NCBI GenBank assembly: GCA_002839375.1
Contig: PGXY01000004.1
Span: 177,612 to 241,611 of the forward strand
DNA length: 64,000 bases
DNA from: Spirochaetae bacterium HGW-Spirochaetae-1
GTDB lineage: Bacteria; Spirochaetota; UBA4802; UBA5550
Direction: 5' to 3'
The notes beneath the pieces were generated by a model. It was not told the DNA's origin, did no database searches, and worked only from the letters and a program-made list of their open reading frames with translations. Positions 16,397 through 24,658 of the stretch are shown in pieces. Position 1 is the stretch's first letter; the number at the start of each line of letters is the position of its first letter. A program made the translations under genes and the position numbers.

Positions 16397-17635
16397 TCAG
16401 GGAGGTTTCTTTATCGGTATAAAATAGCCTTTTTGTATTACATGGGTTTTAATCAGCGAGTCAATAGAATTCGGTGCCTGTAAAGAATACGCTACATCGG
16501 CCAGCATAACAGTTCCGCATTGAGGGCAGAGTTCCGGGTCTTTCTCAAAACAATGCTGAACCGCGTCACGCCATGTTTTCTTTTCTATGTAATCCAGCTT
16601 TTCTCTTATACCGCTGGCGTATATGCCATAATATCGAATAGTTTTCTCATTCCGGTCCGGCAGAAAAAAAAGCATGAGGGCCATGAACTCGTAAATGTCC
16701 ATGGTTTTTACCGCGTATGATTTCTCTCCGCTCTGCCGATTCACCCAGCTCTTATACCGAAAGGTCACGGTTTTTCGCTCGTTATCAACTTTAACGATCT
16801 GGCTGTTGTTCATATACCCTGTGGCAATATATTCCGTTGCTCTGAAAAGGATTTCGTTATTGTTCCCCCTGACCGGTTTGAAATAGACATGGAAGCCATT
16901 AACATACTGTGCAATATAAAAGTCATGTTCATCCTTCGTAATTATCCGGGTCCTGACAAGATGGCGTAAAAAATGCTGCATCCATATAAAGCGTGCCTTT
17001 TTGTAGGGGATAAAAATATTCTCGAGTATTTCACCCGTTTCAGTATTGACGAGTTCTGAGGTACCGATGAGATGAACATGCGGGTTATAGTTCAATCCGT
17101 TTCCACAGGAATGGACCGTGGCTATAACGCCTGGTTTATGTTCCTTTCCCTTAAGCCCGGCTGCCGTCATGAGGATGTCGCGATAGCATTGTGAAGCCTC
17201 TTTTATCATATCCGCCGTATTATAACCCTTTTCAAACAATACCTGACTCAAGGCGCCCGGCACCGTGAAGGTCACATGAAAGTGATTCAGATTCGTGTTG
17301 AGTATGCAGGAAAGATTGAGGGACCAGCCGAAAAGTTTCTTTCTGTAGCATGAGACACAAAGACGAGACTTGCAGGTGAATGGCACCACGAGAACCGTGC
17401 CGCATCCGCTACAGGCATGGCGGACAAAGCCATTCCGGAACCTGCCGCATTTGATGAGCTTATGTGCTTCCTCCTTCTTTTCTTTTGTAAGCGGACCATA
17501 CCGGTCCCTGAAGCGTTCGTCATATATTTCCTGGAACCCCTGCCAGTGGCGTATCCACAGGAATTTATAGGCGCTCCACCGCTCAAGGCCCGGTTGATAA
17601 GCGGGTTTGTCTCCATGCTCTGAACAGATGTACAC
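16397..17635 (-). CDS. IS91 family transposase (HUH/Y2 rolling-circle type)
   Basis: The 412-residue protein has a full-length IS91 layout. An N-terminal zinc-binding domain has C-S-G-C (75-78) and C-x-x-C at 93-96. The HUH motif 'N-P-H-V-H-L-I-G-T' gives metal ligands His186/His188. A tyrosine block 'A-T-E-Y-I-A-T-G-Y' follows (Tyr269/Tyr274, spacing one residue longer than the usual Y-x3-Y). A C-terminal 'C-P-Q-C-G' (about 384-388) completes the layout. These enzymes nick single-stranded ends and move elements by rolling-circle replication. No frameshift is seen, so the gene may be functional. Confidence 0.88.
   Translation of the reverse strand: MYICSEHGDKPAYQPGLERWSAYKFLWIRHWQGFQEIYDERFRDRYGPLTKEKKEEAHKLIKCGRFRNGFVRHACSGCGTVLVVPFTCKSRLCVSCYRKKLFGWSLNLSCILNTNLNHFHVTFTVPGALSQVLFEKGYNTADMIKEASQCYRDILMTAAGLKGKEHKPGVIATVHSCGNGLNYNPHVHLIGTSELVNTETGEILENIFIPYKKARFIWMQHFLRHLVRTRIITKDEHDFYIAQYVNGFHVYFKPVRGNNNEILFRATEYIATGYMNNSQIVKVDNERKTVTFRYKSWVNRQSGEKSYAVKTMDIYEFMALMLFFLPDRNEKTIRYYGIYASGIREKLDYIEKKTWRDAVQHCFEKDPELCPQCGTVMLADVAYSLQAPNSIDSLIKTHVIQKGYFIPIKKPP
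16397..17635 (-). mobile_element. IS91-like element, ends not determined
   Basis: Only the transposase gene marks the element. IS91 elements have no inverted repeats or target duplications, so oriIS and terIS cannot be placed by eye. The dispersed repeat copy G at 16154-16282 lies where the transposase-3'-side end (oriIS) would be expected, which is suggestive but not proof. Confidence 0.5.
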
Positions 17636-18800: not shown

Positions 18801-20744
18801 ATGGACAGAAAAACCGAATTGCTGAAAAGAATTCCTCTTTTCGGGAACCTGAATGAGCAGGAACTGCTTATAATAACCGAATATACGCAGCAGTCCGATT
18901 ACACGGAGGGCTCGATCCTTTTTAAAAACGGCGACAGAAGCACGTCGTGCTATATCGTGGACAAAGGTGAAATCCGCATCGTCCAGGACGCCTATCTTGA
19001 CCGCGATAACACACTGGCCTTCTTCATTGAAGGCGAAATCTTCGGTGAATTCGATCTCTTTGAGAACGATCCCCGGACAGCCACGGCCATAGCGCATTGC
19101 GACAGCTCCCTGCTGATCTTCCCCGGCGAAGGCCAGGAACTGGAAGTACTGTATAACAAGCATCCCGATATATTCGTAAAAATGTATCATACCCTCATCA
19201 CACTCAACGCCGGCAGGATACGCCGAACCAACAAGGTCATCACGGAAAAAAGCTCCTGGATCAACGATCTCAAGGAGCAGATGTACAAGGACAAGCTGAC
19301 CAATTTTTACAACCAGACCTATCTTGACGATGAGGTCCCCGGTCTTTTAAAGCAGTTCGATAAAACCGGGCTGCTCGTGGTAAAACCCGATGATTTTAAA
19401 AGTGTCAACGATACCTTCGGACACGAGGCCGGAGACCGGGCCCTGAAAGCCATTTCTTCCACGGTTATTTCCGCCCTGGGTGACAATGAAATCCCCATCC
19501 GGTTCAGGGGCAATGAATTCATCGTGGCATACTTCGGCAGGAGCGCCGATGAAGCCATTGAGTCGGCGCAGGAATTATTCCGTAAGCTGAGTGACCTGGA
19601 TATCGGGGATCTTATAGCCGACAGGACCCTGAAGCTCACCTATAGCATGGGACTGGCCGAATACCCGGCCCAGGGCGAGACCATAGAAACCGTTATCCAG
19701 TTGGCATACGCCAAAATGTTTGAACAGCGCGACAGCGGCGGCAGCGGAATCAGAACGGCCGAGACCCTCATAGATAATCTCATCCCTTTTCTCCAGACCG
19801 TCACAGTCTTCTCTCCGCTGTATATCTCGGAACTGAAAATCATATCGGGCTTCCTGAAACCCCATACGTATAAACAGGACAGCATCATCTGCAGCGAGGG
19901 TGATGAAGGCAATGAACTCTTCATCATCGAATCGGGGGGTGCCACAGCTTCCATACGTGTCGATGATGAAGAGGAAAAAATTATATCCGAGTTTTCTCCT
20001 GGTGATTTTTTCGGCGAGATGGCCATCTTCGAAAATGCCCTCCGCTCCGCCACCATAACCGCCCGCGAAGACAGCGTGATCCTGGCCCTGGACAAGAACG
20101 ACTTTTTCTCCCTCATGGATAAATGGCCCCTGGTGGCCATTAAGATAATGCGGGGAATGCTCGATATCACCTCGGGACGCCTGAGCAGCACGGGCCGTTT
20201 TATCTCCGAGATGGTGAAGTGGGGTGATAATGCCAGCCGCCGGGCCATCACCGATGAACTTTCCGGTTTATACAACCGGCGTTATCTCGACAGCTCCCTG
20301 ACAGAACAATTCGGAAAGGCGCAGAGAAACGGGAGCACCCTGTCCATCATCATGGCCGACCTTGATCTGTTCCGCGAGGTTAACGAGTCCTACAGCCACG
20401 AAACCGGCGACCGGTACATCGTGGAAGTAGCATCGATATTCAAAAAATGCCTGAGAAGCACGGATATAATAGCACGTTACGGCGGCGATGAATTCACCAT
20501 TGTGCTTCCCGACACGGACATCGCATCGGCCCGGCAGCTGGCGGAAAATATCCGTGCCGACGTCGCAAAACTGGATTTCCTGAAGGAGCTTCCCGGGCCC
20601 GATCTGCACCTCTCCACGAGCCTGGGACTGGCTGCCTTTCCCGATCATTGCAGCAGTATTGAAGACCTCAAAAAACGCGCCGATGAGGCCCTCTACAAGG
20701 CCAAAGAAACGGGACGGAACAAGGTGGTATTCTGCGGCGACTGA
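18801..20744 (+). CDS. Duplicated cNMP-binding/GGDEF protein, diguanylate cyclase
   Basis: The 647-residue soluble protein has the order cNMP (about 10-125), GGDEF-1 (about 165-325), cNMP (about 340-460), GGDEF-2 (about 483-645). Both cNMP domains keep the 'G-E-[IF]-F-G-E' phosphate-binding turn. GGDEF-1 reads R-G-N-E-F (236-240), so the active site is degenerate. GGDEF-2 has intact G-G-D-E-F (561-565) and an I-site R-S-T-D (552-555) for product inhibition. It should make c-di-GMP from two GTP, with the second half catalytic and the first possibly a GTP or dimerisation module. It is divergent from the histone-like gene. Confidence 0.9.
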   Translation: MDRKTELLKRIPLFGNLNEQELLIITEYTQQSDYTEGSILFKNGDRSTSCYIVDKGEIRIVQDAYLDRDNTLAFFIEGEIFGEFDLFENDPRTATAIAHCDSSLLIFPGEGQELEVLYNKHPDIFVKMYHTLITLNAGRIRRTNKVITEKSSWINDLKEQMYKDKLTNFYNQTYLDDEVPGLLKQFDKTGLLVVKPDDFKSVNDTFGHEAGDRALKAISSTVISALGDNEIPIRFRGNEFIVAYFGRSADEAIESAQELFRKLSDLDIGDLIADRTLKLTYSMGLAEYPAQGETIETVIQLAYAKMFEQRDSGGSGIRTAETLIDNLIPFLQTVTVFSPLYISELKIISGFLKPHTYKQDSIICSEGDEGNELFIIESGGATASIRVDDEEEKIISEFSPGDFFGEMAIFENALRSATITAREDSVILALDKNDFFSLMDKWPLVAIKIMRGMLDITSGRLSSTGRFISEMVKWGDNASRRAITDELSGLYNRRYLDSSLTEQFGKAQRNGSTLSIIMADLDLFREVNESYSHETGDRYIVEVASIFKKCLRSTDIIARYGGDEFTIVLPDTDIASARQLAENIRADVAKLDFLKELPGPDLHLSTSLGLAAFPDHCSSIEDLKKRADEALYKAKETGRNKVVFCGD

Positions 20745-20753
20745 CCAGCGGCC

Positions 20754-21953
20754 TCAGTGCAGGATCATGGCATCGACTTCAACATCAACGCGAAGCAATT
20801 CCTCCTGCCTGCCCTCGAGGACCATGCTGTAAATGGAAATCAGGCGATGACAGGACCGCTCAATGCTGTACTGCCCCGCCTTTTCCCGATATTGGCGTCC
20901 CGCTTTTTCCAACTCGTACCGGTTCTCCACGAGATTATCGATTTTTGCAGCCAGGTCACGGGGATCGTCACTGCGGAAAAGAAAGCGCTCATCAAGGGCA
21001 AACTGTTTCGCCGCACTGGTCCGTGAATCGGAGATGAGCGCCGGGAGGCCGCATGCCATGGCTTCCAGAACCGTCATCGACTCCAGCTCCACCTCCGAGG
21101 CATGGACATAGAGATCGGCCATATTGTAATTTTCAAGAAGTTCATCATCATCCACATAACCGATATCGGCCGGGACCGGCAAATCTGCGGCTCGGGTCTT
21201 TATCTCATCTTCCAACGGACCCCTCCCGGCAATTATGAGCTTTATCCGGCCACCGTACCGCGATTGTTTTATGGCATCGATTATGATGTCATGACGCTTG
21301 TCCCTGGCAAGACGCCCCACGGTATAGATAATAAAATACTTATCATAGTCTTTCTTTCGTACCGCATCCACAGGCCTGAAGCGCGGGAGAATGCCGTTGG
21401 AAACGACAAAGCCGGGCACTTGCAGACCATGTTTTTGAAGTTCACTACGAGCGAAGCGGCTTGGACATATAACAGCTGCCGAGCGGTTGTATAGTATCCT
21501 GTTGAAAAACCTGTAGAGCATCCCGGTCAATGCATCATTTCGGATACCGATATTATATAGAATATTCTCGGGCTGCACATGGAAGGAGGATATGACCGGT
21601 TTACCCAGTTTCCGTGCCAGGCGCACGGTGCCATACCCCAGCAGAAAAGGAAACTGCACGTGTATGATATCAGCCTCTTCAAATATTTTTTTTAAAATGT
21701 CTCTTTTCGGGATGGCGAAAATAAATCCATTCTTCTTCATTATTCTTTTAACGGCCGGAATGGGAAAATAATAGCCCGGCACCACTGCTTTACCCGCTGC
21801 AGGAGCACCGGTGGATAATACTGTGACATCGTATCCCTGCTCCCGTAGCACCCGGACGAAACGCTCCGTGGAAACCATACCGCCTCCCCAGGCCCCGTCA
21901 AATACATCGGTCACCATAACAATCTTCAGGCTGTGAGAATCAGTCTTTTTCAT
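20754..21953 (-). CDS. Glycosyltransferase family 4 protein
   Basis: The protein has about 399 residues from the ATG at 21953 (a GTG 15 bases upstream is the alternative). It is a GT-B fold enzyme. The N-terminal half has 'G-G-G-M-V-S-T-E-R' (a glycine-rich acceptor loop) and 'I-I-H-V-Q-F-P'. The C-terminal half has 'V-G-R-L-A-R-D-K-R', 'I-A-G-R-G-P-L' and the retaining-GT4 motif 'E-x-E-S-M-T-V-L-E-A-M-A-C-G-L-P'. Close relatives glycosylate phosphatidylinositol or diacylglycerol, or build surface glycans; the acceptor is unknown. It is 141 bp downstream of the flagellin-like gene and ends 9 bp from the convergent GGDEF gene. Confidence 0.88.
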   Translation of the reverse strand: MKKTDSHSLKIVMVTDVFDGAWGGGMVSTERFVRVLREQGYDVTVLSTGAPAAGKAVVPGYYFPIPAVKRIMKKNGFIFAIPKRDILKKIFEEADIIHVQFPFLLGYGTVRLARKLGKPVISSFHVQPENILYNIGIRNDALTGMLYRFFNRILYNRSAAVICPSRFARSELQKHGLQVPGFVVSNGILPRFRPVDAVRKKDYDKYFIIYTVGRLARDKRHDIIIDAIKQSRYGGRIKLIIAGRGPLEDEIKTRAADLPVPADIGYVDDDELLENYNMADLYVHASEVELESMTVLEAMACGLPALISDSRTSAAKQFALDERFLFRSDDPRDLAAKIDNLVENRYELEKAGRQYREKAGQYSIERSCHRLISIYSMVLEGRQEELLRVDVEVDAMILH

Positions 21954-22094
21954 ACAGATACCCCGCACCGGTTACTGCTCCCCGAAAGCAAACAAGGGAA
22001 GATTGATTAACTGCTTAATTAAAGATGAAGATACGGCACGTCAATCGGAATTTGTAATAAAGTTCAGCCCCGGTGTGCTGTAAATTCTGCAGAT

Positions 22095-22919
22095 TTATTT
22101 ATTTTTCAGGATAAGAATGCCGTAGGATGTTTTCAGAAGAGCGCCGGATTCAGCGAGCCTGCTTATTTCCTCTGCCATGTCGAGATCCGATATCCGGCTC
22201 ATTGATGACGCCAGGTTTACATAATAGACACTTTTGCCCTTGATGCGGAGCCGGAGAATATTGTCCCTGCTGCCCAGAATCGCCCGTGCACGCGAAATCC
22301 GGGACAGGGCCGCATCAATCATCCCCAGGGAGGCTTCAGTGCCGGTCACGGCGCTTACCTTATCAAGACCCAGTCCCGTTACGGTCAGATCAGGGATAAC
22401 CCGTTTTCCATTGAAGGAGGCATACTGCGCCTGCATATCGATCTCCTGCCGGAGCTGATCAACCTCGCTTTGGATCAGTTCCCGGTCATCACTGTTGAGA
22501 ATGCCGTTGGAAGCCCGAAGCAGCAGCTCGCGCATTCTGACCAGAACCTGCTGATCGTGTCCCATGGCGCTTTCGGCATAATTCACGTAATTCCTCATAT
22601 CCTCATCATTGACGATCCTCTGCCGCACCTCACCCAGTATTTTTTCCATATTTTCTGAAACGGCAAATCCTGCGGGATCGTCCGATGGCGTTACAATTCT
22701 CAGGCCCGCTGAAAGTTTTTCAATACGCCGGGAAACCCGTTCACCGAGTAACTTCTGCCGGTCCAGTATAAAAACCGATCCGGCCCGGTTGTATACTGCG
22801 TAATCGACACCTGAAGGGAGGATGAGTGATGACTGCGGTGATTGAGGCATCACGGGTGAAGTGAGCAAAATACTTATCGCCAGTATAAACAGAATATTTA
22901 AAAATCCGCTGCGCCCCAT
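22095..22919 (-). CDS. Flagellin-like protein with N-terminal Sec signal peptide
   Basis: The 274-residue protein begins with a typical signal peptide (hydrophobic core 'I-L-F-I-L-A-I-S-I-L-L', residues about 9-19). A FlaB-type D0/D1 core follows: 'I-E-K-L-S-A-G-L-R-I', 'D-D-P-A-G-F-A-V-S-E', 'A-S-N-G-I-L-N-S-D-D-R' and 'Q-Y-A-S-F-N-G'. The C-terminal part keeps 'M-I-D-A-A-L-S-R-I-S-R-A-R-A-I-L-G' and 'S-R-I-S-D-L-D-M-A-E-E' but stops at 'G-I-L-I-L-K-N-K', without the usual flagellin end (L-x-Q-x-N-x...L-L). Spirochaete flagellins normally reach the periplasm by the flagellar export gate, not Sec. The role is unknown; a periplasmic flagellar accessory is one possibility. Confidence 0.82.
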   Translation of the reverse strand: MGRSGFLNILFILAISILLTSPVMPQSPQSSLILPSGVDYAVYNRAGSVFILDRQKLLGERVSRRIEKLSAGLRIVTPSDDPAGFAVSENMEKILGEVRQRIVNDEDMRNYVNYAESAMGHDQQVLVRMRELLLRASNGILNSDDRELIQSEVDQLRQEIDMQAQYASFNGKRVIPDLTVTGLGLDKVSAVTGTEASLGMIDAALSRISRARAILGSRDNILRLRIKGKSVYYVNLASSMSRISDLDMAEEISRLAESGALLKTSYGILILKNK

Positions 22920-23025
22920 AACATGCTCCTCCGGTCCATAAACTATAAGACACGGCCGACGGCTACGGGGTTACAGAATCACACCGGTACCTGTCAGTGA
23001 GAAAAACCGGAATTTGGGAAAATCA

Positions 23026-23053: not shown

Positions 23054-23107
23054 TTCGGATACCTGATTAACATACATTGAATTTGAGCCAGGATGAGGAA
23101 TAACCCG

Positions 23108-24658
23108 ATGAAAAAAATACTGCTTCCCCTTATAAGCATACTACTGCCGGCATTTTTTGCCGGGTGCCAGCTCGATGTTCCCATCAAAGCGATGGTCAGT
23201 GCCCGCTCCGCCATCACGAGGGGCTATGAAGTGAAAGCCGATACCTATGCTCCGGAAGAGCTTAAAAGTGCCGAGGATAAGCTCTACGAAAGCCATTCGC
23301 AGCTTAAAAAAGGAGACATCGACAAGGCAAAATCTCTGGCTGTCGACTCCAAGACTGATGCCGATGCCGCAATTGAAAAATCCCTGCCTCTCCTGGCCCG
23401 GGACACCCTGGCCCTGGCAAAACAGGCGTATGATCAGGCCGAAAAACTCTATGCCGAAAAATATGCGCCCGAAGACTTCAGCCGCACCGCCGCTCTTATC
23501 ACCGAGTCTGAAAATCTCATGACGCAAAACATGCACTGGGATTCCTATCTTAAATCAAAGGAAGCCCTGTCTGCCGCAAATGCCGCCATGACTGCGTCGG
23601 AATCCCAGATAGACGCTCTTCGCAGTGAGCTGGATACCATCAAAACCTCTCTGGTGGAAATCAAAACAAAAGACCTGAACAAGGATGCCCAGGATGCCGT
23701 AACTGATATAGAATCCTTCATATCCGTCGCTGAAAATGATCTCAATGAAAAAGATCTTAAGCGGGCTACGGCACATATTTCCGAGGCTTCATCCAAACTT
23801 GACACACTGAAAAATTCCATGGCTGCGGGCGATATTAAGGCCAGGATAGGGGAACTGCGCGACGAAACCGACGCGCTCAAAAACGAACGGGGCAGCGACT
23901 TTGCCTTAAAGGAAATTGACGGTGTCACCGCGCTGCTTAACGAAGCAGAAACCAGTCTGGAGCAGAAAAACCTCGATGATTCCCGTCAGAAAATCAGCGA
24001 TGCCGAGGCCATGCTGAAAACAGCCAGGGAAAACACCGATCGCGGCATTGCTACTGAGAAGCTTGAAGCGGTAAGCAGGCTCAGGGATGATTTAGCAGCC
24101 AGGGACAAAAACAAAAAATTTACCGATGAAATAACCGGTTCCGGCAATCTTATTACACAAAGCAGGGAACTGCTGGATCAAGGCGCAAATAATGATTCCC
24201 TTCAGAAATCCATCGAAGCTGAAGCACTTCTTAACACGGTGAGTGTTTCTCTGGAGAAGGAATACGGCATAGTCCGTCAGCCCGATCAGGGTACCGATAC
24301 TGCCGTTATCGCCCAACCGGGAGAAACACAGATATATGTTGTTCAATACTATAAAAAAGACAAGGATTGCCTGTGGCGTATAGCACAGAAGGTTTACAAG
24401 GACGCCCGCCAGTGGCCCAGAATTTATGTAGCTAACAAAGACCAGATCAAGGACCCGGACCTCATCTTCCCGGGACAGAAATTCGTCATTCCTCCACTTG
24501 CCGTCCCGGAAAAGAAAATGGAATTAAAAGAAGATACGGGTAAAGAACCCGCGAAAGACCTGACCCCGGAAAACACTATTGATGATGACAAGGCAAAAGA
24601 AGGGGATACAGAGAAAGATATGATTAAAGAGAATGAAGATACGAAGGAAGCTCAATAG
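23108..24658 (+). CDS. Lipoprotein with DUF4398-like helical repeats and LysM domain
   Basis: The 516-residue protein starts at 23108, where GAGG lies nine bases upstream. Its lipobox is F-A-G-C (Cys20). Residues about 25-375 are long, charged, coiled-coil-like helices with repeated 'A-x-x-x-[LI]-x-x-[AS]-[EK]-x-L' units, as in DUF4398 proteins of spirochaetes. Residues about 407-458 form a LysM domain ('L-W-R-I-A-Q-K-V-Y', 'I-K-D-P-D-L-I-F-P-G-Q-K-F-V-I-P'). The tail is acidic and disordered. A lipid anchor at one end and peptidoglycan binding at the other suggest an envelope tether or spacer. It is the first of five same-strand envelope genes. Confidence 0.82.
   Translation: MKKILLPLISILLPAFFAGCQLDVPIKAMVSARSAITRGYEVKADTYAPEELKSAEDKLYESHSQLKKGDIDKAKSLAVDSKTDADAAIEKSLPLLARDTLALAKQAYDQAEKLYAEKYAPEDFSRTAALITESENLMTQNMHWDSYLKSKEALSAANAAMTASESQIDALRSELDTIKTSLVEIKTKDLNKDAQDAVTDIESFISVAENDLNEKDLKRATAHISEASSKLDTLKNSMAAGDIKARIGELRDETDALKNERGSDFALKEIDGVTALLNEAETSLEQKNLDDSRQKISDAEAMLKTARENTDRGIATEKLEAVSRLRDDLAARDKNKKFTDEITGSGNLITQSRELLDQGANNDSLQKSIEAEALLNTVSVSLEKEYGIVRQPDQGTDTAVIAQPGETQIYVVQYYKKDKDCLWRIAQKVYKDARQWPRIYVANKDQIKDPDLIFPGQKFVIPPLAVPEKKMELKEDTGKEPAKDLTPENTIDDDKAKEGDTEKDMIKENEDTKEAQ

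Follow-up and report, generated by a model that had tools for sequence, protein, structure and literature searches.

In textbook accounts, flagellins are exported through the flagellar type III gate. A gene in the window (the whole stretch of 64,000 nucleotides that was analyzed) appears to encode a flagellin homologue behind a Sec-type leader, and it raises the question of what such a protein is, by which route it would leave the cytoplasm, and what it might do in a spirochaete.

Flagellin homology, leader, and departures from FlaB

There is good support for the start with the leader, as a strong ribosome-binding site lies immediately 5' of its ATG (Table 1), and no better start was found further downstream. 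In Pfam, the only domains above cut-off are those of flagellin: Flagellin_N (PF00669) at E 2.1e-21 and 76.8 bits (curated cut-off 26.6) over residues 64-174, and Flagellin_C (PF00700) at E 1e-7 and 32.6 bits (curated cut-off 23) over residues 198-269. The NCBIfam flagellin and FlgL models match under their cut-offs, TIGR02550 (FlgL) reaching E 1.3e-26 and 93.9 bits against a cut-off of 127.2. The best BLAST scores of the window protein are 118 bits to spirochaetal FlaB, 87 bits to Bacillota flagellins, and 53 bits to FlgL, and both sequence and fold searches of the PDB return flagellins on top, led by the FlaB filaments of spirochaetes (Leptospira biflexa structures). The preliminary description, made from the DNA letters, had seen a flagellin homologue here, and on this point it is borne out.

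Table 1. Features of the Sec-leader flagellin homologue and its surroundings in the window
Feature	Position	Strand	Basis
CDS, Sec-leader flagellin homologue	22095..22919	-	274 aa, ATG start; Pfam and orthologues
Ribosome-binding site GGAGGAG	22926..22932	-	6 nt before ATG, read directly
Residues 1-26, hydrophobic Sec-type leader MGRSGFLNILFILAISILLTSPVMPQ	22842..22919	-	hydropathy against 40 FlaB; position conserved in family
Residues 30-56, segment particular to the family (LFxPxGANFxVYGRGxxxFIINRxK), found where flagellin D0 would start	22752..22832	-	A1 consensus
Residues 62-172, flagellin ND1 helical core including SAGLRI, DDPAG, RMREL	22404..22736	-	Pfam, PDB matches, model
Residues 170-202, short linker; D1 insert/beta-hairpin region gone	22314..22412	-	family versus FlaB lengths
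Residues 220-236 (NILRLRIKGKSVYYVNL), counterpart of the second half of the CD1 helix	22212..22262	-	strand periodicity in family
Residues 240-274, shortened C terminus (SRISDLDMAEEI...LLKTSYGILILKNK)	22098..22202	-	FlaB ending AQANxxxQxVLxLL absent
GT4-type glycosyltransferase (PF00534/PF13439), downstream of the family gene	20754-21968	-	

The same description had called the N terminus a Sec-type signal, and hydropathy supports a leader there. In a simple hydropathy script with 12-residue windows, the window protein reaches a mean of 3.0, whereas the 40 FlaB proteins used as controls do not exceed 1.49 in their first 45 residues. The other family members score 1.95-2.93, except L071 (1.74), in which a contig end truncates the start. 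A leader is recognizable in all 14 intact members (in one, G106, a contig end cuts the start), and its position is kept across the family at protein identities of 28-46%. The cleavage site is weak in the window copy (...LLTSPVMPQSPQSS, not a canonical A-X-A); relatives mostly carry good small-x-small sites (LNA/GN, AQA/SA, LTA/SD, and IVA/QS, the slash marking the cut). A leader of this kind would send the protein through Sec, with the periplasm as its predicted location.

We compared the 14 intact members with 40 true FlaB proteins from related spirochaetes. FlaB is the closest known protein by BLAST, profile, and fold search, and it is the nearest BLAST relative of each of the 14, with FlgL scoring well lower every time. 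Shared with FlaB (PF00669/PF00700) are ND1a, ND1b, and the first half of CD1, together with the SSGxRI, DDP/DDA, RxREL, and RDxDM motifs. Thirty positions are conserved and identical in family and FlaB, among them R128, R130, L132, S71, G72, R74, and I75, and the invariant R-x-R-x-L and S-G-x-R-I motifs are retained in the three-helix core of D1. Unlike FlaB, the family has a Sec leader, forms a separate clade, appears beta-like in the second half of CD1, and lacks the N-terminal D0, the D1 insert, and the C-terminal end of D0. Flagellin-type helical regions at the N and C termini are also a feature of FlgL (hook-associated protein 3), but FlgL has no leader, and the genomes of the carriers encode an FlgL of their own.

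At the N terminus, the D0/export end is absent, and the leader and the family-specific segment stand there instead; a beta hairpin (residues 40-43/49-52) is predicted within that segment at low confidence in both structure models. Between the ND1 core and CD1, all 14 members have 33 residues where FlaB has 69-70, so that 36 are lost. After the Met of DxDM, 25-29 residues remain in the family versus 36-39 in the 40 FlaB proteins, which shortens the C-terminal D0 helix by about 11 residues. The altered C terminus noted in the preliminary description is thus confirmed, the protein ending about 11 residues early and without the FlaB terminal motif.

The second half of CD1 is less straightforward. 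Over residues 220-236, the hydrophobic moments at 100/170 degrees are 0.13/0.42 in the family and 0.43/0.28 in FlaB, and this half of the helix looks beta-like in the family. The single-sequence model, which is poor (pLDDT 45), places strands in these residues; the second model (mf99a9c9170cd), built with nine Bacillota flagellin rows, places a helix. Because those rows guided mf99a9c9170cd, it cannot settle the beta question, and the helical C terminus that it predicts may be an artefact of them; its pLDDT falls below 50 at both ends. In residues 62-172, by contrast, most of its pLDDT values exceed 80, and both this model and the PDB fold search have the D1 core folding as flagellin. Judged by its sequence, then, the family is derived from flagellin yet fails three defining features of flagellins.

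Distribution and flagellar setting of the family

A protein search of 39 relatives recovered orthologues over their full length in ten genomes, one of them that of the window, together with many ordinary flagellins. With a profile of ten family members (A1), the family was found in 13 of the 46 genomes of the class and 11 of its 26 genera. This count includes a broken copy (G030, L074:4873-5337), whose match is interrupted by two in-frame stops; an intact carrier, G021, belongs to the same genus. Among 393 genomes of the phylum Spirochaetota there are two further carriers, G106 (genome contamination 8%; gene start truncated as above) and G203, and no other case was found in the order of either. 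Viral contigs held unrelated flagellins only and no family member, and we found no description of such a Sec-leader flagellin family in the open-licence PMC papers searched.

In a tree built together with 40 FlaB proteins, nine Bacillota flagellins, and a single FlgL, the family forms a single clade on a long stem, with support of 100/100; branches inside the clade are also long, and not all joins are certain. The preliminary description had named a conserved clade with signal peptides as what would support it, and a conserved clade was found, its intact members all with a recognizable leader. Between two congeners dN is 0.21 and dS 0.97 (dN/dS about 0.22), which argues that the protein is under purifying selection. 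The gene is absent from 33 of the 46 class genomes, that is, from most flagellated relatives, and is therefore dispensable for periplasmic flagella.

The family coexists with a complete flagellar set. The genome of the window has seven Flagellin_N matches, namely five FlaB proteins, one presumed FlgL, and the family gene, and it also encodes FlhA, FliG, and three FlaA proteins, the latter at separate loci. Genuine subunits for the filament thus come from other genes in this host. FlaA occurs in 45 of the 46 class genomes, so that the family comes on top of an otherwise normal periplasmic flagellum. Flagellar genes are present in every carrier tested. One genome (G040, L072:7-840), in which the family gene is the sole Flagellin_N match and FlaB was not found, was considered as a carrier without flagella and rejected, as this 71% complete genome has FlhA and FliG. 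A surplus of flagellins in carriers was also considered and is weak (6.3 versus 5.3, p 0.013, by a statistic that ignores kinship). Co-occurrence with a divergent FlaB paralogue (L077:2019-2864) was rejected because the paralogue is near-universal in the class; this paralogue (G000:C7:530021-530863, MRINHNMSAIFANRQ...) adjoins a normal FlaB.

Two members lie beside the same flagellar operon. In G011, the family gene is 82 bp upstream of flgB-flgC-fliE-fliF-fliG-fliH on the same strand, and in G203, from another order, it is 52 bp past the equivalent flgB-type operon in convergent orientation. Under assumed rates, the chance of two in 14 beside one operon is about 0.03 if 2% of sites are flagellar and about 0.002 if 0.5% are, so that coincidence is unlikely. 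The two members may, however, pair in the tree through a long-branch join, and the adjacency may therefore be one event. No flagellar gene was seen adjoining the other 12 intact members, the window copy included, and neighboring genes vary from carrier to carrier. The operon adjacency, the five true FlaB proteins of the window genome, the lost D1 insert, and the beta-like half of CD1 are all additions to the preliminary description. A scan for the sigma-28 consensus upstream of family genes was uninformative, as the consensus failed on the 40 FlaB controls too.

A proposed role and its alternatives

Our preferred reading, which we regard as about evenly balanced between right and wrong, is that the family consists of Sec-exported periplasmic proteins derived from FlaB, which most likely serve the periplasmic flagellum as accessories and are not filament subunits. 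We advance a degree more tentatively the fuller proposal that these proteins make up a family not described before, FlaB derivatives that are exported by Sec, lack D0, and decorate or regulate the periplasmic flagellum from outside. A FlaB-type gene would have been duplicated early within this spirochaete group and then rerouted, the duplicate gaining a Sec signal peptide and losing three parts: the export/D0 segment at the N terminus, the D1 insert, and the last portion of D0. Its product would cross the inner membrane via Sec, bypassing the type III gate of the flagellum, and would fold in the periplasm, the compartment that houses the filaments of spirochaetes. Because D0 is missing, it could not form the inner tube of the filament and would stay outside, where its likeliest action seems to be to dock, by contacts like those of D1, on FlaB or on the hook-filament region.

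This docking can be likened to that of the Sec-exported sheath proteins FlaA, FcpA, and FcpB on the FlaB core. By that analogy, the family protein would bind the flagellum, conceivably as a sheath, a cap, or in some other flagellar role. The likeness extends to the proposed Sec route, the periplasm, and action on the FlaB core. It does not extend to the proteins themselves, as the folds are unrelated, the window protein did not prove homologous to FlaA, FcpA, or FcpB, and the family is much rarer than FlaA. Periplasmic flagella differ in sheath composition from lineage to lineage, and what is known of it comes from a small number of cultivated species; the family, if our reading is true, would be an extra candidate component. 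In spirochaetes, sheath proteins coat the FlaB core, FlaA1 and FlaA2 of Leptospira are predicted Sec/SPI substrates, and Sec-exported sheath proteins are an established route of filament building in these bacteria (PMC13144727). FlaA itself has no similarity to flagellins, which exit through the flagellar type III system and polymerize under the FliD cap (PMC9481697). Flagellin D1, Sec leaders, and Sec-exported sheath proteins are all already known; their combination as a conserved family did not turn up in the papers searched. A conserved Sec-leader flagellin clade would clearly exemplify a filament protein that switched its export route. Spirochaetes allow such a switch because both routes lead to the periplasm, the site of their filaments. 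If the accessory role is real, a flagellin has become an accessory protein of its own filament.

As the main alternative, the protein could be a Sec-exported flagellin derivative with a periplasmic or envelope job that has nothing to do with the flagellum, such as ligand binding, envelope scaffolding, or adhesion. We consider this a genuine possibility but lean against it. Its patchy presence and scattered genomic contexts, fast evolution with long branches, loss of assembly surfaces, and remodeled, beta-like parts would all fit such a role. There is also a precedent in P5, a flagellin homologue of Sphingomonas sp. A1 whose structure (PDB 3k8v) is among the PDB matches, though P5 is not the closest relative of the window protein. 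As is proposed for the family, P5 would act outside a filament; it is not known to have a comparable leader. P5 binds alginate and is reported to be an outer-membrane alginate receptor and cell-surface flagellin homologue (PMC8286568). Against a non-flagellar role stand the flagellar genes of all carriers tested and the two members adjoining the core flagellar operon, and no recurrent non-flagellar partner gene was found in the neighborhoods examined.

Retention of the flagellin D1 core, with several invariant FlaB residues, would be expected of a protein that is still a filament subunit, exported through Sec and built into FlaB filaments or a filament of its own. This seems very unlikely, as all 14 members lack the D1 insert as well as D0 at both ends. 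The filament core is lined by D0, and flagellin normally reaches the distal cap through the filament channel, both of which disfavor such a subunit. The preliminary description had doubted that the protein builds filaments, and the absence of the ends needed for assembly supports it. Least probable of all, to the point of being nearly negligible, is an error of start or annotation, by which an ordinary flagellin or pseudogene would have acquired a spurious hydrophobic extension. The lack of a canonical signal peptidase site in the window copy and the broken copy in one relative (G030) could be taken that way, but the strong ribosome-binding site at the leader start, the leader position conserved at 28-46% identity, the dN/dS ratio, and 13 more intact copies all point the other way, and the conserved layout already refutes it.

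Neighbors of the window copy

A GT4-type glycosyltransferase gene follows the family gene in the window. Its distance had been given as 141 bp, which is right for its ATG start and becomes 126 bp for its GTG start. The accompanying suggestion that GT4 modifies the flagellin homologue fared less well. GT4 adjoins no other member examined, being a neighbor in the window genome only, and we rejected it as a conserved modifying partner; moreover, it is not obvious how a GT4 enzyme in the cytoplasm would suit a substrate exported by Sec.

Several other genes nearby deserve mention. Positions 18801-20744 (+) encode a protein in which cNMP-binding and GGDEF domains, two of each, stand in tandem, and small cNMP-binding proteins lie near the family gene at three other loci (L031, L033, and L037), possibly by chance. 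An IS91-type transposase (PF04986, PF14319) is encoded at 16397-17635 (-), about 4.5 kb from the family gene. The divergent neighbor at 23093-24658 (+) is likely a lipoprotein, with DUF4398 and a LysM domain, and could bind peptidoglycan.
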